Shown here: piece after piece, positions 19,582 to 29,473 of the stretch
How positions within the stretch are numbered: the stretch's first letter is position 1
Layout: the number at the start of each line of letters is the position of its first letter
Source of the DNA: a virus
Strand: one strand, 5' to 3'
Virus record (IMG/VR): IMGVR_UViG_3300040806_000817
Span: 1-30,079 of that record
Length of the DNA stretch: 30,079 bases
Program-made: the position numbers and the translations under genes
Notes under the pieces: generated by a model
Database searches by the model: none
The model's input: only the letters and a program-made list of their open reading frames with translations
What the model was told of the DNA's origin: nothing

Positions 19582-20766
19582 TTAGATCAAATTGGACTGG
19601 ACAAAATCGGGCTCACCCTGTGGTTCTTGCAGTTCAGTCTCACAGTCAGCATCAGCATCGACCTTCGTATAAAGGTCACGGAATGATGACTTGGTATCCT
19701 CATCAAACCGATTGATACACATTTCAATGGCGGTCATACGATCACCAAAGATTGAGTAAGCCTTGGCAATATGAACCAGACGCCGTGTCGAAATGATCTC
19801 ATCAACACCACCATCATAGTAGGTCTTGCGGATGATATCGGCCCAGTCAACCAACAACTCTTCAAAGTTGTCCATGACATCTACACCAAGATCATCAAAC
19901 ACCATGCCGAGCATCTTTTTCTCGACCGATACTGGTGGGTACTCTTGCTCAATGGTGATTGGAAAACGCTCTAGAAACGCCTCATTCATCACATTAGTAC
20001 CGATGAAACGGCCATCGTCAGAACCCTTACCTTTGGTATTGGCTGTTGCGATGACCGTAAAGCCAGAAGCAGGCTTAATAAACTCGCCAGTCTTCTTGAT
20101 AAAGTAGCCTTTCCCTTCAAGGATAGACTGAAGACACATAACCTTTGCTGGATTTGCAAGGTCAAGTTCATCTAGCAGGGCAACTGCGCCACGCTCCATG
20201 GCTTTAATAATAGGGCCTTTGAAGAATTTTGTTTCTCCGTTGACCAAGCGAAAACCACCAATCAAATCGTCTTCATCGGTTTCAACAGTGAAATTGATCC
20301 GAATGACTTCACGCTTCAACTGGGCGCAGGCTTGTTCAATACCGAATGTCTTACCGTTACCAGAGAGACCAGTAACATAGACAGGATAAAACATACCCGA
20401 CTTGATAATCTTTTTAAGTTTGTTATGATGACCGAATGGTACAAACAGAGGATCATTCTCAGGAACTAGGTTCTCAGTGAATGAGTCTGTTTGCACATTT
20501 AGGTCATTAACTATCGGAGCGGGCTGGAGTGCAACTTCTGCCTCAGGAACAGCGGGCATCACAGGAGTGGGCGATACAGCACCAGTAGTCGGCAACTTGT
20601 AAAGACCACGACCTACACGATAGTCATCATTATGAAGCAACCAAATCGGGCGCTTCAAACCATTTGATTTGGAAATCTCAAGGGCTTGGGCCCGTGTTAG
20701 AGTGTCACCAAATTCTTTGATGGCAATCTCAACAAAGGCTTGCTGGTTCTTATTCAACTTTTTCAT
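19582..20766 (-). CDS. cobS: CobS-like AAA+ ATPase
   Basis: A 394-residue MoxR/CobS-type ATPase. The N-terminal 120 residues contain a small helical domain and a Pro/Val-rich linker. The ATPase core has Walker A GLSGNGKT near 136-143, Walker B LLDELDLA near 195, the ATANTKGKGSDDGRF sensor-1 region near 240 and an RFPITIE segment near 265, as in CobS of aerobic cobaltochelatase. The start at 20766 follows GAGAGGTGAAATT; the ATG 15 bases earlier is part of that site. The CobT-like gene lies just upstream. Phages lack the cobalt-binding CobN subunit in this window, so chelatase function is not shown; a general AAA-VWA remodelling role is possible. Confidence 0.88.
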   Translation of the reverse strand: MKKLNKNQQAFVEIAIKEFGDTLTRAQALEISKSNGLKRPIWLLHNDDYRVGRGLYKLPTTGAVSPTPVMPAVPEAEVALQPAPIVNDLNVQTDSFTENLVPENDPLFVPFGHHNKLKKIIKSGMFYPVYVTGLSGNGKTFGIEQACAQLKREVIRINFTVETDEDDLIGGFRLVNGETKFFKGPIIKAMERGAVALLDELDLANPAKVMCLQSILEGKGYFIKKTGEFIKPASGFTVIATANTKGKGSDDGRFIGTNVMNEAFLERFPITIEQEYPPVSVEKKMLGMVFDDLGVDVMDNFEELLVDWADIIRKTYYDGGVDEIISTRRLVHIAKAYSIFGDRMTAIEMCINRFDEDTKSSFRDLYTKVDADADCETELQEPQGEPDFVQSNLI

Positions 20767-20780
20767 AATTTCACCTCTCA

Positions 20781-20838
20781 TTGCGAATCACTTTTCTCAC
20801 TACCTTGCTATCCTAGCAAATTGGAACCCATTTGTCAA
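20781..20838 (-). promoter_or_regulatory. sigma70-type promoter with GTGATTCGCAA leader element
   Basis: TTGACA (20838-20833), 17-bp spacer, extended -10 TGC-TAGGAT (20815-20810). The leader carries AAGTGATTCGCAA (20793-20781) followed by TGAGAGGTG, then the cobS-like start. The -10 is weaker than in the other copies. Confidence 0.78.
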
Positions 20839-20843
20839 GTCTT

Positions 20844-23114
20844 TTATGCTACGATATCAATAAATTTTGACAACATAATGCGGCTCGTTTTACGACCAGA
20901 GTTTGCTTTCTTGAAGGCAGTACGGATCACTGCTTTAGACGCATCATCAGCAACTTCAATTGCACCATTAGATGTCGCCAAATTCTTACCACCAAGAACA
21001 CCAAAGTAAGCACTATAACCATATTCTGGGATCAAACAGAACTTATCTTTTTTCATATTGTCCCAGAGTTGTTCCCGCTGTTGCCAATCAAGATCAGAAG
21101 TTGGAATCTCCCGCATTGCTTGTGGCTTGCGTGATGGAAGAATATGAAAGCCAATCACATTAGAACCCGTATGCTCACGGAGCATTTTAAGAAGTTGTGG
21201 AGTAGCAGGCTTTTTGTTGTCAAACCGATACCGCTTCTTTAGGACAGGATTTGTAATATAACATAGCGTTTTAGCTTCCCAGTAACCTCGAAAAGACAAT
21301 CGCTTTGTACATTTCTGGCCAGTGTCTTGACCATAAGAATTTTCATATGTTGACTGATAATCAAGAGCATGGCTTGCACCATCTGAAAGAAACACGGTGT
21401 TTACAATGTCAAGTCGATAGTTATTTTTGAAAATGTCATGGAGTACAAACGCTGACAGAATGGCATCATCAAGAGGAGTACCACCGAGCCACATTGAATG
21501 AGGAATATTGTAATATTCCGTATAAGGATCATAACGATTATCCCAGTAATTACCGACTGCGATAATACCCGAAGCCATAGTCTGAAATTCCGTGCGGCTC
21601 ATTTTACTTGAGAACAATTCTAGTAGCCGAAATTCATCTTGAAGACTAGCATCATTAATGGCGAAAAGTTGATGATTGATAAACTTATCGTGACTATCAC
21701 CTTTGCCGCGGCTAGCAAACTTATCACTAAAGGCATAAACCTCAAATGGGATTTGAACCTGCTTGCAAAACATTACAAGATTCAACAACTGGTCAATGGT
21801 GTGTTTCAACTGATCATTCATAGAACCAGACCAGTCAACAAACATCATCAAGCCATGACTCTTACCTTCAGGCACCACAGTCATTTTCTTGAATACGTCA
21901 TCACTGAACATATAGTTATTCATTTTGAGGGTATCAAGAACACCAGTTTTTGAAACAGTAGCCCGCTTATATTCAGCGGCTTTTTTCTTCATCTCAAATT
22001 CTTTGACCAAATAGTTAATAGTCTTTTTGTTGTTGATTTGAAACTGCTTAAACTTCTTCTGACCAAAACTTATAGCATCTTCATATTCATCAAACTCTGC
22101 AAGAACTTTCTTATAATCAACAATACGGTCAGTATAGAGGTTCTTTTTGAGATTGAGATTGATGTTTACAAACGTGGTATTCGGATCGCCACCAAATTCT
22201 TTGGTGATATTATCTGAAAGATTTTTGTCGGTGATTGATTCGGGACCAGCCCAGTCAGTGCCACCTTCATGTCCACTTGAGGTATCAGGTTTTTGCTCAC
22301 CTGATGTGTCTAGATCATCTTTGGATGAGGCACCAGAGCCGTTTTGATTATTTAGGTCGAACTGATCATCTTTTTCTGAAGTTCTCTCATAAGGGCTGGT
22401 TTCCTCTTCATCATCGCCTTCTGACGCCATGTTAGTCTCTGGTCGTATGTTCTTATCAGAACCGTATTCGCTACCATCGGAAGATTCTTCTTCATTACCG
22501 TAGTCCTCTGATTGCATTTGAGCCATAGCTTGAGATATTGCTTCCTGCTCTTGCTCTTGCTCTTCTACTGCTTTACCATAGAGTCGCTTGGCAATATCAA
22601 CTACTTCTTCAAAGGTTTCAACCTTCTCAATCTCACGGATCCAAGCCTTCTCTTCTTGATCGAACTGAACACCGACAGTTTGTCCGCACTTGAAGAACAC
22701 ATTAAGACGGTCGATCAGTTTGAAACTATTTATCTCATTCTCATCTTTACCGAAGAAACCATCAGCAAGCATTTTCTTATAAGATTGAATAAAGGGCTTA
22801 CGCAGACCAGGGTAACGGCGCTGGATCAGTTTTTCGATCCGAGCATCTTCTACAACATTCAGAAAAGACTGAAATCCATTACCACCTTCTTTGGCGGCGG
22901 TCATCCACTCTTCACCATCAGTATAGAGAGCATGGGCAACTTCGTGGCCGACCAAGTGATCATAGGTATAATTCTGCATGTCATCCCAAAGTGGGAGCGT
23001 CAGAATACGATCTTTTACGTTGAATGATGCGGTCTGGGTATTCTGGTGTACTACTGTAATATTTTCAGTAGCAAGCAGACGAGCCAGAACTTCTTTAGAC
23101 TGAATATTTACCAT
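20844..23114 (-). CDS. cobT: CobT-like protein with HExxH and VWA domains
   Basis: A 756-residue partner of the CobS-like ATPase. The N-terminal part has a zinc motif HEVAH at 57-61 with NVVEDARIE about 25 residues later, which looks like a gluzincin-type metallopeptidase site. The middle (about 190-310) is acidic, Gln/Ser-rich low complexity. The C-terminal half holds a von Willebrand A domain whose metal site DWSGSM is near 420. This matches CobT-like proteins of marine T4-like phages. The ATG at 23114 directly follows the leader element GTGATTCGCAA, with the ribosome site GAGAGG before that element, the reverse of the other leaders. Confidence 0.88.
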   Translation of the reverse strand: MVNIQSKEVLARLLATENITVVHQNTQTASFNVKDRILTLPLWDDMQNYTYDHLVGHEVAHALYTDGEEWMTAAKEGGNGFQSFLNVVEDARIEKLIQRRYPGLRKPFIQSYKKMLADGFFGKDENEINSFKLIDRLNVFFKCGQTVGVQFDQEEKAWIREIEKVETFEEVVDIAKRLYGKAVEEQEQEQEAISQAMAQMQSEDYGNEEESSDGSEYGSDKNIRPETNMASEGDDEEETSPYERTSEKDDQFDLNNQNGSGASSKDDLDTSGEQKPDTSSGHEGGTDWAGPESITDKNLSDNITKEFGGDPNTTFVNINLNLKKNLYTDRIVDYKKVLAEFDEYEDAISFGQKKFKQFQINNKKTINYLVKEFEMKKKAAEYKRATVSKTGVLDTLKMNNYMFSDDVFKKMTVVPEGKSHGLMMFVDWSGSMNDQLKHTIDQLLNLVMFCKQVQIPFEVYAFSDKFASRGKGDSHDKFINHQLFAINDASLQDEFRLLELFSSKMSRTEFQTMASGIIAVGNYWDNRYDPYTEYYNIPHSMWLGGTPLDDAILSAFVLHDIFKNNYRLDIVNTVFLSDGASHALDYQSTYENSYGQDTGQKCTKRLSFRGYWEAKTLCYITNPVLKKRYRFDNKKPATPQLLKMLREHTGSNVIGFHILPSRKPQAMREIPTSDLDWQQREQLWDNMKKDKFCLIPEYGYSAYFGVLGGKNLATSNGAIEVADDASKAVIRTAFKKANSGRKTSRIMLSKFIDIVA

Positions 23115-23631: not shown

Positions 23632-23680
23632 TTGCGAATCACTATATGACTGTTATAGCAAAAAGAGGAGAGTTTGTCAA
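23632..23680 (-). promoter_or_regulatory. sigma70-type promoter with leader element and 14-bp inverted repeat
   Basis: TTGACA (23680-23675), 17-bp spacer, extended -10 TGC-TATAAC (23657-23652). The leader holds AGTGATTCGCAA (23643-23632) before AAAGAGGAG. A perfect 14-bp inverted repeat, TCTCCTCTTTTTGC (23671-23658) and GCAAAAAGAGGAGA (23635-23622), flanks the -10 and start and includes the ribosome binding site. Confidence 0.8.
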
Positions 23681-25215
23681 CCATTAAAATTGGTTTCTAG
23701 GCGCATACCATAATTATTTACGCCAGATTTGACTTTGAGACCCTTCTTATATTGAAGTTTATTCTTCTTGAACGGTCCATAGTCAACCCAGTGATGCCAT
23801 CTACCATATCGCCATACGACTCTTGCTACATCTGGGTGCATATCAGCCAGCATCTGTGATTTATTGATCGTGCCGTCTGTATTATAGCCTTCTTTATTGA
23901 TTTTTTCTGAATGTTCTGCGTGATAAAATTCTTCTGTATTGCCACCCTTCACTGTTTGGGTAGCCGCTTTGCCTTGCATAAATGCGTTGAATTGAACACA
24001 AACATCACCGTCTTTTAGAACTCTTAGACAAATATCTGTATCTTCGTTGTAACGACCACGCCAGCGATGCTTACAGTCATTACGAATCAGCAATGTTGAA
24101 TAAATGCGTGTGTTAGCAACAAATGGTGGATACTTCTGGTCTGGAGCGATGAAGAAACGATACTGTGGTCCAGAAATATAGACATTATCATATCTATCGA
24201 CAAAATCTTCCATCACACGAAAGCCTACACCAGATTCAAAGCGAATACGCATATTTTCATGTAGACGATAGAAATCACTGATATTATCATCTAGTACCCA
24301 GTGACTTGTAGCACCAATGCTAATAGAATGATCCCAAGCCCAGTTTCTTGCACGTCCCGGTCCATCACCATGATTTGAGAATGGAGCGACCAGAAGTGTC
24401 ACCATATCACGAATGCCAAAGTTATCCAATGCTTGATCATAATTCTCATAATCCTGAGGCTCAATCACAATATTGTGAGGGATACGCATCCGTGCGAGAG
24501 AGCGAGAGGTGTGCATAGATTCGTGCCTACCCTTCGATACAATATACATTGGATACTTTGGCAATGTATGCTCATCATCTTGTACCCAACGTAGAAGACG
24601 ATTAGCCGTGATATCAAGTTTTGGATGCCAGATTGCTTTAGATTTATTAGTCAGTTCTTGACCAATACGCTTTGCAAACTCTTTATAATCTGCTTCATTA
24701 CGAAACTTCATATGAACAGTACGAAATGGTGGATTATTCTCTTGTGTGAACTCGGGCATATCTACCCAATGTTCATGCCACTTCGCATTGACATCCACAA
24801 CTGATTCTTCAACTTCAACATCCAGCACCGTAGTAGATTTAGACTTTTTACGAGGCATAAGGTACTTCTTGTCAACTGTGATATTCGTGGGCTGATCTTC
24901 TTGGAAGAGAGCCGTTGAAGGATCAGCAAGTGGAAAAAATGTATCCTTAGTCTTGTAGTCTACTACTTGACCAATCTTAGAACAAAAGTCTGCCATATCA
25001 TTGACATTACGAAAGTGGACATAGACAACTTTATATACATCTGCATACTTGTCTTGTATACTGGCTTTCGTTCTATCGTGGAGAGCCTGATTAATCTCTT
25101 CGCCCACGAATTTGTCAAGTGTGGTCTTATACGAGTCTTCGATACGATTTGATGTATCAAGGTAGTTATCGTATGAGGCACTTTCTTCTACTACTGGTGC
25201 TGGTGTGTTTGTCAT
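23677..25215 (-). CDS. TET-associated-type glycosyltransferase (TAGT)
   Basis: A 512-residue protein. Two N-terminal repeats of one small domain lie near residues 63-97 (VYVHFRNVNDMADF) and 168-200 (VHMKFRNEADYKEF), each ending in a P-containing turn. The C-terminal domain (about 220-460) matches TAGT enzymes: YPMYIVSKGRHESMHTSR, IVIEPQDYENY, GPGRARNWAWDHSI and HWVLDDNISDFYR. TAGTs in phages attach sugars to 5-hydroxymethylpyrimidines in DNA, usually with a TET/JBP oxygenase. No TET gene is in this window; it may lie elsewhere, or the base may come from hydroxymethyl-dCTP. The start overlaps the kinase stop as ATGA. Confidence 0.82.
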   Translation of the reverse strand: MTNTPAPVVEESASYDNYLDTSNRIEDSYKTTLDKFVGEEINQALHDRTKASIQDKYADVYKVVYVHFRNVNDMADFCSKIGQVVDYKTKDTFFPLADPSTALFQEDQPTNITVDKKYLMPRKKSKSTTVLDVEVEESVVDVNAKWHEHWVDMPEFTQENNPPFRTVHMKFRNEADYKEFAKRIGQELTNKSKAIWHPKLDITANRLLRWVQDDEHTLPKYPMYIVSKGRHESMHTSRSLARMRIPHNIVIEPQDYENYDQALDNFGIRDMVTLLVAPFSNHGDGPGRARNWAWDHSISIGATSHWVLDDNISDFYRLHENMRIRFESGVGFRVMEDFVDRYDNVYISGPQYRFFIAPDQKYPPFVANTRIYSTLLIRNDCKHRWRGRYNEDTDICLRVLKDGDVCVQFNAFMQGKAATQTVKGGNTEEFYHAEHSEKINKEGYNTDGTINKSQMLADMHPDVARVVWRYGRWHHWVDYGPFKKNKLQYKKGLKVKSGVNNYGMRLETNFNG

Positions 25216-26000
25216 TTTAGTCCCATTTTTGCCCTGATCGCTGTGGCTGAAATATTTTCGACTTTTTCATCAAAATGCTCTTGTTCAATAGCATAGCCTA
25301 CTTTGCGACCGTAAGTAATGTTTACGATATTAGGTACAAGCATAATAACATATTCTTTACCGTGTGTAAAGCCATTTTCTGCTAATCCCTTAATAATATT
25401 TCGCTTCACTGTCTCAAAGTCAAAAGGATTGCTGTCATCCCATCCCTGTACGTCACGGACTTGAATAGCAACTTGACCAGTCTTTGCCAGACAACGCTCA
25501 AACAATGCTGTGTGACCATCGTGCCATGGCTGCCAACGGCCAAGCATCTGTACTGTCTCTTTACGCCATGAGAATGGCTGTAGATCGGCAACAATAGCAT
25601 CTGATTGTGCGTCTGATTCCATCTCTGTAAAGTGATAGTCAACTGACACTATACCACCATCATTGATAGGCACTTCAAACATTTTGTTGGTGTCTTCATA
25701 ACGACCATCCTCAATTGTATCCAACCAGATAGTAACATCGGCAGTTACGATATGGCGGTACTCTTGCTTAGGACATACAAAATCCAGAATAGCCCACTGC
25801 TTATCTGATTCAGCACCGAGAACTCGCATACGCTCTGCTTGACGTAAACGACCCTCTTCACTGAAATCCCAGTCATCAAACCGTTTACGGACTTCATCAG
25901 CATTGAAGTGATCTGCATCACCAAGTTTTTGTCGAATTTTGTTTGCTAGTGTGCTTTTACCTGACCCAGGTAGACCCATCACTAGAATAGTTTTAGCCAT
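25212..26000 (-). CDS. kinase-nucleotidyltransferase fusion
   Basis: A 262-residue two-domain protein. The first 140 residues form a P-loop kinase: GLPGSGKST at 9-17, then HFNADEVRKRF, as in adenylylsulfate kinase (CysC) and related small-molecule kinases. The second half is a nucleotidyltransferase: GRWQPWHDGHTALF near 155, the HxGH active site, and the C-terminal ISATAIR. The true start is MAKTILVMG at 26000 after AGGAGAAACAG; the longer frame overlaps the upstream gene. The likely products are activated phosphate or nucleotide-linked precursors. Its coupling to TAGT suggests, but does not prove, a role in DNA or glycan modification. Confidence 0.82.
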   Translation of the reverse strand: MAKTILVMGLPGSGKSTLANKIRQKLGDADHFNADEVRKRFDDWDFSEEGRLRQAERMRVLGAESDKQWAILDFVCPKQEYRHIVTADVTIWLDTIEDGRYEDTNKMFEVPINDGGIVSVDYHFTEMESDAQSDAIVADLQPFSWRKETVQMLGRWQPWHDGHTALFERCLAKTGQVAIQVRDVQGWDDSNPFDFETVKRNIIKGLAENGFTHGKEYVIMLVPNIVNITYGRKVGYAIEQEHFDEKVENISATAIRAKMGLK

Positions 26001-26169
26001 TATCTGTTTCTCCTCGTAGTTTATTTTCGGCTGTGTCAATTTCCTCTAAACGGCTCTTCATATATGCGATAGCCGTGTGAATATGACCAGTATCGTGTGG
26101 CTGTAATTTACTCTCTGCTACTTTAACTTCGTTGCTGAGAATTGCTCTCAAATCATCTATGTAACTCAT
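25993..26169 (-). CDS. 58-residue helical hypothetical protein
   Basis: A short ORF starting MSYIDDLRAILSNEVKVAES, fully helical by composition. It overlaps the next gene's start by eight bases and starts two bases after the cupin stop. Its AGGAGA near the 3' end serves the kinase gene. The fit between neighbours supports it, though its own ribosome site (GGAATTAATT) is weak. Confidence 0.62.
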   Translation of the reverse strand: MSYIDDLRAILSNEVKVAESKLQPHDTGHIHTAIAYMKSRLEEIDTAENKLRGETDNG

Positions 26170-26171
26170 AA

Positions 26172-26519
26172 TTAATTCCTTTCAAATCCAACGCTCTCAC
26201 GCTTGATATCATTGTGATTAAATTCTGCCCAATACAGTTCAAAGGCTACTGCATCTTCAAGGCATTCAAACTGATGAAGTACACCCGGTTTTACCTTAGT
26301 AAACTCACCCGGGCCAATAATTGTTTCATCAACCAAGTCATAGTCACTTTGCCATACACGAATCAGAAGTTTGCCTGACTCGACAAAAAAACCATTCCAT
26401 TTAAACTCATGTAGATGCTTAGAACAAACACCACCCGCTTTAGTCTCAATTCTATGGAACTCAAGAACACCATTTGCTTCAACAAGTTCTGTCTGTCCCC
26501 AAATTTTACCCGCTTTCAT
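26172..26519 (-). CDS. cupin-domain protein
   Basis: A 115-residue single cupin. The metal motif 1 is KHLHEFKWNGFFVESG (about 34-49: H, H and E ligands) and motif 2 is PGVLHQFECLED (about 78-89, one H). Mannose-6-phosphate isomerase- or sugar-epimerase-like cupins are the nearest by look. The start overlaps the deformylase stop by one base. Location beside kinase, nucleotidyltransferase and glycosyltransferase genes suggests sugar or nucleotide-sugar metabolism; substrate unknown. Confidence 0.82.
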   Translation of the reverse strand: MKAGKIWGQTELVEANGVLEFHRIETKAGGVCSKHLHEFKWNGFFVESGKLLIRVWQSDYDLVDETIIGPGEFTKVKPGVLHQFECLEDAVAFELYWAEFNHNDIKRESVGFERN

Positions 26520-27046
26520 TATGCTACTCTTCCCATATTTTTCTGTCTCAATTTATCAAGTTTTTTCTTTTTGCTAATTGCTTGCTCTAAATGAAATCTA
26601 TTTGCTTTCTTAGTATATAGGATTCCATCTAAGAGGTCTAACTGATGTTGAAATATTTTGCTGGTCAGACCACCAAACCTTATTGTATCAGTTACATTAT
26701 TTTCAGTTGTATATCTTGCTCTTATCGTTGAGTATCTTTTCATCTTAACATAAAGGCCTGGGAATGTCAAGCATTGTTCTTCCTCTATTTCAAGATCATT
26801 ATCTGACCAAGCAACAATTTTTGGATTGAACACTCCAGCGACACTATCAGGATCATTCCAATTGCCCATCACAAACACCCGCAAAGGAATACCACACTGA
26901 GGTGCAGACAAACTTGTGCCTCGGTTATGAATCATAGTATCTTTTAAATCTTGAAACAGTTCAATAGGGTCCGATACATTGAAGTCGAAAGGCGAACTGG
27001 CCATTTCTTTGATGCTGTTCTTCTCAATTAGTTTAAAAATACTCAT
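26519..27046 (-). CDS. peptide deformylase homologue with degenerate active site
   Basis: Peptide deformylase removes the N-formyl group of new proteins. This 175-residue homologue keeps motif 1 (GTSLSAPQCG, about 43-52) and motif 2 (EEQCLTFPG, with the metal-binding Cys). Motif 3, normally HExDH, reads HQLDLLDG (about 134-141): the catalytic Glu is Gln and the second metal His is Leu. The codons CAG and CTC are clear. Such an enzyme should not bind metal normally or catalyse the standard reaction. It may be a binding protein, a decoy, or a decaying gene. The start overlaps the methyltransferase stop as ATGA. Confidence 0.85.
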   Translation of the reverse strand: MSIFKLIEKNSIKEMASSPFDFNVSDPIELFQDLKDTMIHNRGTSLSAPQCGIPLRVFVMGNWNDPDSVAGVFNPKIVAWSDNDLEIEEEQCLTFPGLYVKMKRYSTIRARYTTENNVTDTIRFGGLTSKIFQHQLDLLDGILYTKKANRFHLEQAISKKKKLDKLRQKNMGRVA

Positions 27047-27582
27047 TCTGTTCTCCCATGAAACTTAGTTTCTAACACTGGCTCTGAAACAAATTTATAC
27101 CAGCAACAATTATCTTTACCAACACCAGTACTTCCTTCAATCCACTTAACTCTGCCAATACTAATAATATCAGAGCAATGTTTCATATATGGTGCTGATT
27201 GCTTTGTGTGCATCCAGTCAGAATCAAATAGTAGCCATGTTGTCATCTTCTCGTTGAATACAAAATGCTCAATGAATGGATGTAATATCTTTCTGTCCCA
27301 TGGTGGATTTGTAATTACACAGCCAGATTCAAATAACTCTTCGTAGCCAACATCTCTAAAATCATCTTGTAATATACCTTTACTCTGTGGTTCAATGTCA
27401 CTAGCCCACATGCAGATAGCATCAGTCTCTTCTTCAAGAATGTGAATTAGACGACCATCACCAGCACACGGTTCAGCAAATCTAACTGCTTCGGGTAGAT
27501 GAGGTAGTAATGGTAATACTGCCGCTAATGGTGTAGGATAGAAATCTCTTTCTACTCTTTGAAATGCGCTTCTTTTACCCAT
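27043..27582 (-). CDS. DNA adenine methyltransferase-like protein
   Basis: A 179-residue SAM-dependent methyltransferase. The DFYPTP segment near 13 and AEPCAGDGRL (about 35-44) form the SAM site, and CVITNPPWDRK (about 87-97) contains the NPPW motif of N6-adenine methyltransferases. The C-terminal WIEGSTGVGKDNCCWY fits phage Dam-like enzymes. No obvious target-recognition domain is present, so the site preference cannot be read. It may protect phage DNA from restriction. It overlaps the upstream gene by 31 bases. Confidence 0.82.
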   Translation of the reverse strand: MGKRSAFQRVERDFYPTPLAAVLPLLPHLPEAVRFAEPCAGDGRLIHILEEETDAICMWASDIEPQSKGILQDDFRDVGYEELFESGCVITNPPWDRKILHPFIEHFVFNEKMTTWLLFDSDWMHTKQSAPYMKHCSDIISIGRVKWIEGSTGVGKDNCCWYKFVSEPVLETKFHGRTE

Positions 27583-27761
27583 ACTTCTCTAACCATTGTA
27601 AATTGTAAATCACTTCTAGTTTTTCCATGATACTCTCTAATTTTTCTGAGAGCCTCATCTTCATCTTTACCTCTCGACCAGACTTCATAGCCACCTCTCA
27701 TAAAATCAAACTCAAGTTGATCAGGAGGGTCTATCTCTATTCTGATAAGAAAGAATCTCAT
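27552..27761 (-). CDS. small hypothetical protein after gp46
   Basis: A 69-residue protein starting MRFFLIRIEIDPPDQ, alpha/beta by appearance, with a DEDEALRKIREYHG helix (about 33-46). The start overlaps the gp46 stop as ATGA, so it is coupled to gp46, and the end overlaps the methyltransferase gene by 31 bases. No family recognised. Confidence 0.68.
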   Translation of the reverse strand: MRFFLIRIEIDPPDQLEFDFMRGGYEVWSRGKDEDEALRKIREYHGKTRSDLQFTMVREVWVKEAHFKE

Positions 27762-29473
27762 GCGGCAATTCGACTAAAGTTCTTCACCTTTTCAAATCTA
27801 ATTTGACTGCGGAACTTTTCTGATAAAATGTCACCTTTATGTGAGATAACAAATACATTGGTCTCTCCACCCAACTGATGGATTAGTTTAAGAAACTCAT
27901 CACAACCAGCAGTATCAAGTGAAGCATCAAAGACTTCATCCAAGATAAGTAGGTTAGTGTTAGTACTGTTTTTGAGTTTAGCCACTGCTCTCCAAGTAAA
28001 TAATAATGCAAGATCAATTCGCATTTTTTCACCTTCTGAGAACGAGGCATATGAAAACTCATCTCTATGTCGGCTCTTAATGATTTCATTGAATTCCTCA
28101 TCTAGTTCAAATGCAACAAAGAAGTCGAGTGCGGCCAAATATTTGTTAATTAATTTATTCATAATTGGCACATACTGTTTAATGATTTTGGTTTTAATAC
28201 CACCATCTTTTAGCATGTCTGCCGCAACACCAAACAATTCTCTTGAATTAATTAGTTCTTCTTTGCGCCCAGTAAGTTGCTCATTTTCTGCTTTTAGAGC
28301 GTCAAGTGTATCTTTTGCATCTGTGTCATCTGCGCCAGCCTCTTGTATTTTCTGTATCTCATTCGCATTCTTCTTGATAGATTTTTCTAATGACTTAATT
28401 GCTGATAGATTTGAAGAAATATTAGTTTGAAATAAGGTTATCTGAGACTGTACAGTTTGTATTTCATTAAGTCTTGCCTGCAATAAATTATACTCATTCT
28501 CTAATTCTGATATTCCACCTTTGACTTTAGATATAATACCCTGCGTGTCACCAATAACCTTACGTTTGATTGTATTCTCAATCTCTTGCTGGCAGGTAGG
28601 GCATTCATCATGGTTGTCAAAGAAATCAATTCTTTTGTGAGCTTTGTCATGCTTACTTTTCAACTTACTGATCAGATCAAACACCTTGCCACTTTTTAGT
28701 GTGATACTCTGAGAATCTTTTACACTATCAAGCAACATTTGAGTCTTAGTTGCCATACAAGCATTATTGGAAGTAAGTGTAGTAATCTCTTCGTTTGATT
28801 CATTGATCATACCAGTAAAAGTAGCGATGGTGTCATCACTCTGGGCTTTGAGTTTTTTAATATAATCTTTTTGTGTGTCAATCTTACTTTCGGTTAACTG
28901 CATCTGATACTCAATATCACGAATATCTTCTTTATTCTCTGCAATACGATCTTTGAGAAGTTTGCCCATAGATGAAAAGATACTGATATCTAGAAGGTCT
29001 TCGATAACATCTCTACGATTAGCGGCAGTCAACTGCATGAATGGCACAAACGTAGACGCACCCAATACCACAATCTGTGTAAAAGATTTGTAGTTTAGTT
29101 TAAGAATGGTCTCTTCAAGTTGCTTCTGATAATCTCTTGCTGACCCTGGTTGATTAAGAAGATTGCCATTTTGAATAATCTCAAAGATACCAGGCTTGAT
29201 GCCTCGTCTTACAAGATATTCTTGCTTGCCAATACTAAACTCAATTTCACAAAGCAAATCACGCTGATTGATAGTATTCATCAATTGTGGCTTAGAGATT
29301 TTACGAAATGGTTTGTTGAACAAGACAAAACACAATGCATCCAGAATTGTAGACTTGCCAGCGCCATTCTCACCCACAATGAGTGTGTTTGGTGATCTGT
29401 TAAGTTGGATTTCTGTATTTACATTGCCAGTCGATAGAAAGTTCTTATATCTAATCGTCTTGAAATAAATCAT
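27758..29473 (-). CDS. 46: recombination endonuclease subunit, gp46 (SbcC/Rad50-like)
   Basis: The ATPase partner of gp47 in DNA-end resection, recombination-dependent replication and host DNA breakdown. 571 residues (T4 gp46 has 560). Walker A VGENGAGKST is near 33-42; two coiled-coil arms (about 180-270 and 300-400) flank a zinc hook CPTCQQE near 290; the ABC signature SFSEGEKMRIDLAL is near 483 and Walker B LLILDEVFDASLD near 515. The start MIYFKTIRYKNF fits the family. Transcription can start from a consensus promoter in the end of gp47. Confidence 0.97.
   Translation of the reverse strand: MIYFKTIRYKNFLSTGNVNTEIQLNRSPNTLIVGENGAGKSTILDALCFVLFNKPFRKISKPQLMNTINQRDLLCEIEFSIGKQEYLVRRGIKPGIFEIIQNGNLLNQPGSARDYQKQLEETILKLNYKSFTQIVVLGASTFVPFMQLTAANRRDVIEDLLDISIFSSMGKLLKDRIAENKEDIRDIEYQMQLTESKIDTQKDYIKKLKAQSDDTIATFTGMINESNEEITTLTSNNACMATKTQMLLDSVKDSQSITLKSGKVFDLISKLKSKHDKAHKRIDFFDNHDECPTCQQEIENTIKRKVIGDTQGIISKVKGGISELENEYNLLQARLNEIQTVQSQITLFQTNISSNLSAIKSLEKSIKKNANEIQKIQEAGADDTDAKDTLDALKAENEQLTGRKEELINSRELFGVAADMLKDGGIKTKIIKQYVPIMNKLINKYLAALDFFVAFELDEEFNEIIKSRHRDEFSYASFSEGEKMRIDLALLFTWRAVAKLKNSTNTNLLILDEVFDASLDTAGCDEFLKLIHQLGGETNVFVISHKGDILSEKFRSQIRFEKVKNFSRIAA

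Follow-up and report, generated by a model that had tools for sequence, protein, structure and literature searches.

Few genes are commoner in marine phages than those for peptide deformylase (PDF), and it is not settled why. In print, phage PDFs have so far been treated as active enzymes, and their conserved motifs prompted the suggestion that all of them might be active (accessible part of PMC5591237). The locus described here raises the question whether a phage PDF can be kept by selection once its catalytic centre is gone, and what such a protein would do. It lies on the viral record IMGVR_UViG_3300040806_000817, of which positions 1 to 30,079 (30,079 nucleotides, hereafter the window) were analysed. 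We consider it highly probable that the PDF encoded in the window is catalytically dead and kept by selection.

The gene is clearly a member of the PDF family by descent: its product matches profile PF01327 with 100.4 bits (cut-off 22.8) over profile positions 17–152 of 156 (Table 1). Re-reading reproduced exactly the open reading frame (ORF), the coordinates and the motif III of a preceding sequence-only reading. That reading had also described the frame as open and coupled to its neighbours, and both overlaps are seen: ATGA at 27043–27046 with the upstream ORF, and TAATG with the downstream ORF, sharing one base at 26519. The window also encodes a DNA polymerase, a UvsX-like recombinase, a DnaB-like helicase and a clamp loader. 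The best matches of the polymerase are Marine virus and Synechococcus phage records at about 52% identity; from this gene set and these matches we take the window to derive from a T4-like phage.

Table 1. Features of the pseudo-deformylase locus in the window, and lineages of PDFs with a dead catalytic centre in the survey.
Feature	Position	Strand	Remarks
Pseudo-deformylase gene	26519..27046	(-)	175 aa, stop included; PF01327 1e-28, phrog_2890 7.6e-29
Motif I GTSLSAPQ, residues 43-50	26897..26920	(-)	GxGLxAPQ expected; second Gly to Ser
Motif II EQCLT, residues 90-94	26765..26779	(-)	EGCLS expected; Gly to Gln, metal Cys kept
Motif III HQLDLLDG, residues 134-141	26624..26647	(-)	HExDHLxG expected; catalytic Glu to Gln, metal His to Leu
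C-terminal basic helix, residues 150-174	26525..26599	(-)	AlphaFold model; aligned with the C-terminal helix of E. coli PDF
Shine-Dalgarno-like GGGAG	27053..27057	(-)	Six bases 5' of the pseudo-deformylase ATG, read from the sequence
Upstream neighbour, DNA methyltransferase-like	27043..27582	(-)	phrog_799 6e-30
Gene 46 (SbcC-like recombination nuclease subunit), locus anchor	27758..29473	(-)	phrog_77 1e-173
Downstream neighbour, small cupin	26172..26519	(-)	phrog_7851 1.3e-12; Cupin_2 5.8e-6, just under cut-off
Dead lineage: window clade			Window and L002; L001 merged with the window by its gene 46
Dead lineage: L044, L050, L263			Cys to Ser, Glu to Ala
Dead lineage: L232			Cys to Ser, Glu to Gln, His to Asn
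Dead lineage: L194			His to Gln, Glu to Gln, His to Leu
Dead lineage: L010			Ochrobactrum phage OspM_OC
Dead lineage: L096			Rhizobium phage RHph_I1_18
Dead lineage: L032			None of the four residues kept

Other genes of the window, all on the minus strand, were recorded as well. The product of 25212–26039 has a P-loop kinase region at the N-terminus and, after it, a weak cytidylyltransferase-like one (CTP_transf_like, E 0.0037, below the cut-off), and is apparently a bifunctional nucleotide or sugar enzyme. Gene 23677–25215 encodes a 512-aa protein matching a beta-glucosyl-HMC-alpha-glucosyltransferase phage family (phrog_842, 1.4e-43), which may point to modified DNA in this phage. Within 50–295 and 2349–2422 lie four tRNA genes (Thr, Asn, Leu, Trp). 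The adjacent genes 19582–20781 and 20844–23114 match phrog_249 (porphyrin biosynthesis, 1.5e-118) and phrog_459 (peptidase, 1.9e-188), which resemble the cobS/cobT-type pair of T4-like phages. In OspM_OC, genes annotated for cobalamin biosynthesis lie directly 3' of the PDF.

The sequence-only reading had found motif III devoid of the catalytic Glu and one metal His, and had regarded motifs I and II as intact. The first statement stands, and the same two changes are shared by two relatives (see below); the second had to be given up. All three motifs of the window PDF deviate, beyond what had been seen: motif I departs from the pattern of active PDFs (GxGLxAxQ) with its Gln retained, motif II departs from EGCLS by Ser to Thr besides Gly to Gln with its metal Cys retained, and motif III, where HExxH supplies the base Glu and two metal His, reads HQLDL. 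In a first census of 125 live sequences (those with intact catalytic residues), the second Gly of motif I was Gly in all 125 and the Gly of motif II in 121.

The conserved glycines of PDF motifs I and II line the substrate cleft. A conceivable role would be that of a formyl-peptide or nascent-chain binder, whose dead site holds fMet N-termini without cutting them; the motif I Gln, the motif II Leu and Cys and the first motif III His all remain in the window clade, and PDF is described as holding the nascent N-terminus before handover (accessible part of PMC8712518). However, both cleft glycines now bear side chains (G45S and G89Q in E. coli numbering), position 89 is changed in six of the seven dead lineages described below, and the formyl group would have no anchor if the metal is absent. 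Such binding thus appears distinctly improbable.

Two further IMG/VR contigs from other metagenomes carry close relatives of the window PDF: L001 (99% identical) and L002 (89%). Both read HQVDLLDG, with the same motif I and II changes, so that HQ(L/V)DLLDG is found in all three known members of this window clade; as L001 and L002 carry the same Glu to Gln and His to Leu replacements, chance or sequencing error is excluded. The closest PDF outside the clade, L016 (IMGVR_UViG_3300009000_000014), is 56% identical and reads GIGLAAPQ, EGCLT and HEYDHLDG. Its gene 46 is 69% identical to that of the window and its tail very similar, whereas its catalytic centre is intact. The region is a recombination mosaic: the methyltransferase-like (dS 0.07) and kinase (0.01) genes of L002 are nearly the same as those of the window, but divergence is much greater in gene 46 (0.62) and the cupin (0.79), and the N-terminal 25 residues of the PDF differ as well.

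The occurrence of such proteins elsewhere was surveyed in four scans anchored on gene 46 and not on PDF motifs. This anchor was chosen because a PDF lies at or just after gene 46 in phages Cr30, OspM_OC, Melnitz and RHph_I1_18. The first scan took the window as its centre and the later ones took phages with dead PDFs, and each comprised the best 80 of about 560–600 matches, so that the frequency of dead PDFs in the survey is biased by the choice of centres. Among the gene 46 matches listed, 292 of 297 records carried gene 46, of which 246 were distinct. A PDF was found within 2.5 kb downstream at 170 of these 246 loci, or 121 of the 160 whose downstream sequence reaches at least 2.5 kb; 76 had none, including 39 with at least 2.5 kb to search. 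Five further phage records are included in a total of 175 distinct PDFs; leaving out seven cut at contig ends gave 168 full-length sequences, nearly all just downstream of gene 46.

Among these 168 PDFs from the matches listed, 158 keep all four catalytic residues (Cys/His/Glu/His), none lacks exactly one, and 10 are dead: five without two residues, three without three and two without all four. The catalytic Glu is missing from all ten, never as the sole loss, and is replaced in each of the about seven lineages in which they lie (by Q, Q, A, Q, A, L and N; Table 1). The scan centred on the window yielded by itself three dead PDFs among the 62 full-length ones listed, in two lineages. An oddity private to the window clade was ruled out by the dead PDFs elsewhere in the survey.

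A separate observation concerns L074 (1904–2419), counted among the 158 live PDFs, which combines an intact HELDH with motif I Gln to Glu and a motif II EMCAS; it is possibly a weakly active or intermediate form.

These counts bear on the idea that the window protein is still a deformylase of unusual chemistry, in which a different base and a different metal ligand do the work, a possibility raised for some type 3 PDFs. In T. brucei, type 3 PDFs with deviant motifs are active, with unusual cofactors proposed (PMC12690207, accessible part), and a Cys and one His remain in the window PDF. On the other hand, the type 3 deviations described there fall in motifs I and II, while the window protein lost the base and a ligand of motif III and two glycines, and the Glu was never lost alone among the matches surveyed. 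We therefore regard retained activity as highly improbable.

To place the losses, a tree of 132 sequences was built by a quick method with the motif columns removed and SH-aLRT as the only support measure; the distant live L013–L015 were left out. It needs seven changes between dead and live states, at least four of them forced by well-supported branches; an earlier tree of 74 sequences, before L232 and L194 were included, needed four, at least two of them forced. Within the phage set, the intact L016 is sister to the window clade in both trees (SH-aLRT 94 with 74 sequences, 97 with 132). A single clade of all dead PDFs is not the topology of the larger tree, in which L010, L096 and L032 have very long branches and are placed with little certainty. 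The same catalytic centre thus appears, from sequence comparison, to have been lost repeatedly and largely independently in other phages. The changes are read as losses because intact motifs are the common state; the tree alone gives no direction.

The dead gene of the window might be the decaying remnant of a phage PDF that was formerly active, and the intact centre of its nearest outside relative L016 would fit this, as would the N-terminal 25 residues, which differ strongly between L002 and the window. The ratios of non-synonymous to synonymous change (dN/dS) speak against it. Within the window clade they are 0.15 for the window and L002 (Fisher 3e-6), 0.06 for the window and L001 (p 0.007, from only five differences, four synonymous and one non-synonymous) and 0.19 for L001 and L002. 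L044 and L050 give 0.085 at dS 1.3 (Fisher 6e-24), and the trio with L263 gives 0.05–0.13 (p 5e-18 to 2e-33). Both testable dead clades are hence under purifying selection (dN/dS 0.05–0.19), with a significant synonymous excess; within-clade values describe change after the loss, provided that the loss occurred in the clade ancestor. Among live pairs, the ten listed as closest (dS below 0.6) range from 0.02 to 0.36, nine of them at 0.19 or below. Deep pairs are saturated and were not used (median 0.44 over 1083 live pairs; 0.47–0.84 between dead lineages).

Conservation was further scored against a profile of the 125 live sequences, separately for motifs, core, tail and N-terminus. The window clade lies 8 s.d. 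below the live mean at motif positions, at -0.4 to -0.5 s.d. in the core and at 0.0 s.d. in the tail. With L232 included, motifs are 8 to 11 s.d. low, core scores run from -0.5 to +0.8 s.d., tail scores from 0.0 to +0.6 s.d., and N-terminal scores lie 1.3 to 2.6 s.d. below the mean. For sequences chosen by their motifs, circularity affects the motif score, but not those of core and tail. In the window clade and L232, the catalytic positions are therefore changed while core and tail are typical. L044, L050, L194, L010, L096 and L032 score lower in core, tail or both, with tails 1.6–2.7 s.d. below the live mean in L044/L050 and L194 and 3.2 s.d. below in L010 and L096.

The AlphaFold model of the window protein has the PDF fold with high confidence (pLDDT 92.9, pTM 0.87), and all 50 matches listed by Foldseek in the PDB are PDF structures; the 50 matches listed by VIA-align have Z of 22–24. 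The model of L032, which keeps none of the four residues, also has this fold (pLDDT 88.7), its best match being the PDF of phage S-SSM7 (3uwa, Z 22.8). Live PDFs abound in the input alignments, and this biases the predictions towards the family fold. There are no stops or frameshifts in the frames of the two testable dead clades. Decay was rejected on dN/dS and the predicted fold, and a relic is in our view extremely improbable. The proposal that the gene is not simply decaying, made from the sequence alone, is thus borne out by purifying selection, the predicted fold and the coupled genes, and the check by dN/dS suggested with it gave 0.06–0.19 in the window clade. Nearest relatives with intact HExDH together with relaxed selection had been named as evidence to the contrary; the former is seen in L016, the latter is not seen.

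If the protein is kept without its chemistry, its locus may tell something of its role. One such explanation is a moonlighting scaffold, in which the PDF fold is kept as a partner of the co-translated replication and recombination module (gene 46/47) and not of the ribosome. The frequent position downstream of gene 46 noted above, ATGA-type overlaps with gene 46 in L194, L032, L050 and L096, and a PDF in the core of pelagimyophages within a DNA metabolism operon (PMC7029224, accessible part) would agree with this. However, live PDFs occupy the same locus, two small ORFs intervene between gene 46 and the PDF in the window, Melnitz and Cr30 also have an intervening gene, and contact with gp46/gp47 is purely putative. 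We consider a scaffold unlikely.

Known PDF inhibitors such as actinonin chelate the metal, and we know of no sensor of PDF. A decoy in counter-defence, whose PDF surface titrates a host sensor, a toxin or a natural PDF inhibitor, could be imagined, as there are natural inhibitors of PDF, and inhibiting the enzyme can induce Vibrio prophages (PMC12690207, accessible part). The window site, however, should hold no metal for chelating inhibitors to bind, which makes a decoy very unlikely.

We favour a role at the ribosome. PDF binds ribosomal protein L22 through its C-terminal helix and competes with methionine aminopeptidase (MAP) (PMC8712518, accessible part). In the predicted model of the window protein, a basic C-terminal helix occupies the position of that of E. 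coli PDF (type 1B), on which the model superposes over its full length including this helix (1icj_A, Z 23.9, 167 aligned residues, rmsd 3.5, model 2–170 on chain 1–168), at 22% sequence identity and with the catalytic centre intact in the E. coli protein. The tails KVEKLDRLKAR (window) and KKKKLDKLRQK (E. coli) resemble each other by eye without a gap, although MAFFT placed one there. All 34 tail residues are identical between the window and L002, and the tail net charge is +7 in the window against a live median of +8; L010 has only +1. Tail identity equals or exceeds core identity in three of four dead pairs (two clades), compared with 11 of 41 disjoint live pairs, which is only suggestive of a tail specially guarded in dead clades. 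Live PDFs with intact motifs at the same gene 46 locus have the basic tail as well, and descent alone would give its retention.

We propose that the phage pseudo-deformylase is a fully folded PDF that has lost deformylase chemistry and is maintained for another role. Its retained function would be docking at the ribosomal tunnel exit via the basic C-terminal helix, at the site where host PDF and MAP bind in turn; there, in the infected cell, it may not process the N-termini of nascent chains itself but delay or re-time their processing. With the shape and C-terminal helix of a PDF and none of its chemistry, the protein would be a natural competitor at the ribosome exit. The sequence-only reading had offered a ribosome-exit or a peptide-binding role. 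The former is the best remaining idea, given that the basic helix, collinear with the one by which E. coli PDF binds the ribosome, is retained; the latter is weakened by the side chains on both conserved glycines. The statement as a whole, a pseudo-deformylase kept by selection and acting non-catalytically at the ribosome exit against host PDF and MAP, is put forward tentatively, at somewhat less than an even chance. The dead lineages need not share one function.

Inactive PDFs are already known in bacteria: type 3 or accessory PDFs of S. aureus and S. pneumoniae are inactive by motif substitutions (PMC12690207, accessible part), as the window PDF probably is. Those are cellular, changed in motifs I and II and found beside an active PDF, whereas here the protein is of phage origin and has lost motif III too. 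A search of 14 records with PF01327 gave one match in 13 and none in one (the L036 record). No PDF besides the dead copy was found in the complete genomes of OspM_OC (227,654 bases) and RHph_I1_18 (170,978 bases), in contrast to the type 3 PDFs with their active partner, or in the L194 contig (149,500 bases, completeness not established). The window is a 30 kb fragment, and the same phage could encode a second, active PDF elsewhere. The dead PDF of OspM_OC as query found no further relatives in viral contigs, and among the matches listed in tblastn searches of phage records with L044, L194, L032 and L096, the best other match was below 60% identity. PDFs of marine T4-like phages (S-SSM7, Vp16 and the marine viral 1906, 1577 and 2750; types 4 and 1B) share fold (3uwa, Z 22.8) and family with the window protein. 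All five show conserved motifs, whereas the window protein lacks the Glu and one metal His; S-SSM7, Vp16 and 1906 are reported active, while 1577 and 2750 failed to complement, which is linked there to short C-termini (PMC5591237, accessible part). A search of the open-access literature found no report of phage pseudo-deformylases, which are thus apparently unreported.

For the annotation of phage genomes, the name 'peptide deformylase' does not imply activity, as both dead proteins of OspM_OC and RHph_I1_18 bear it. If the catalytic centre was lost repeatedly while selection kept the fold, at least some phage PDFs are useful without chemistry, and the dead PDFs may serve as natural separation-of-function variants for testing a role at the ribosome exit. 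That T4-like phages repeatedly (about seven times in this survey) converted their own deformylase into a pseudoenzyme of the ribosome exit, by which host N-terminal processing is blocked or re-timed, is a bolder and, on balance, doubtful generalization. If it were true, part of the role of phage PDFs, the live ones included, was never chemistry, and the question why so many phages carry a PDF would become testable by separating docking from catalysis.
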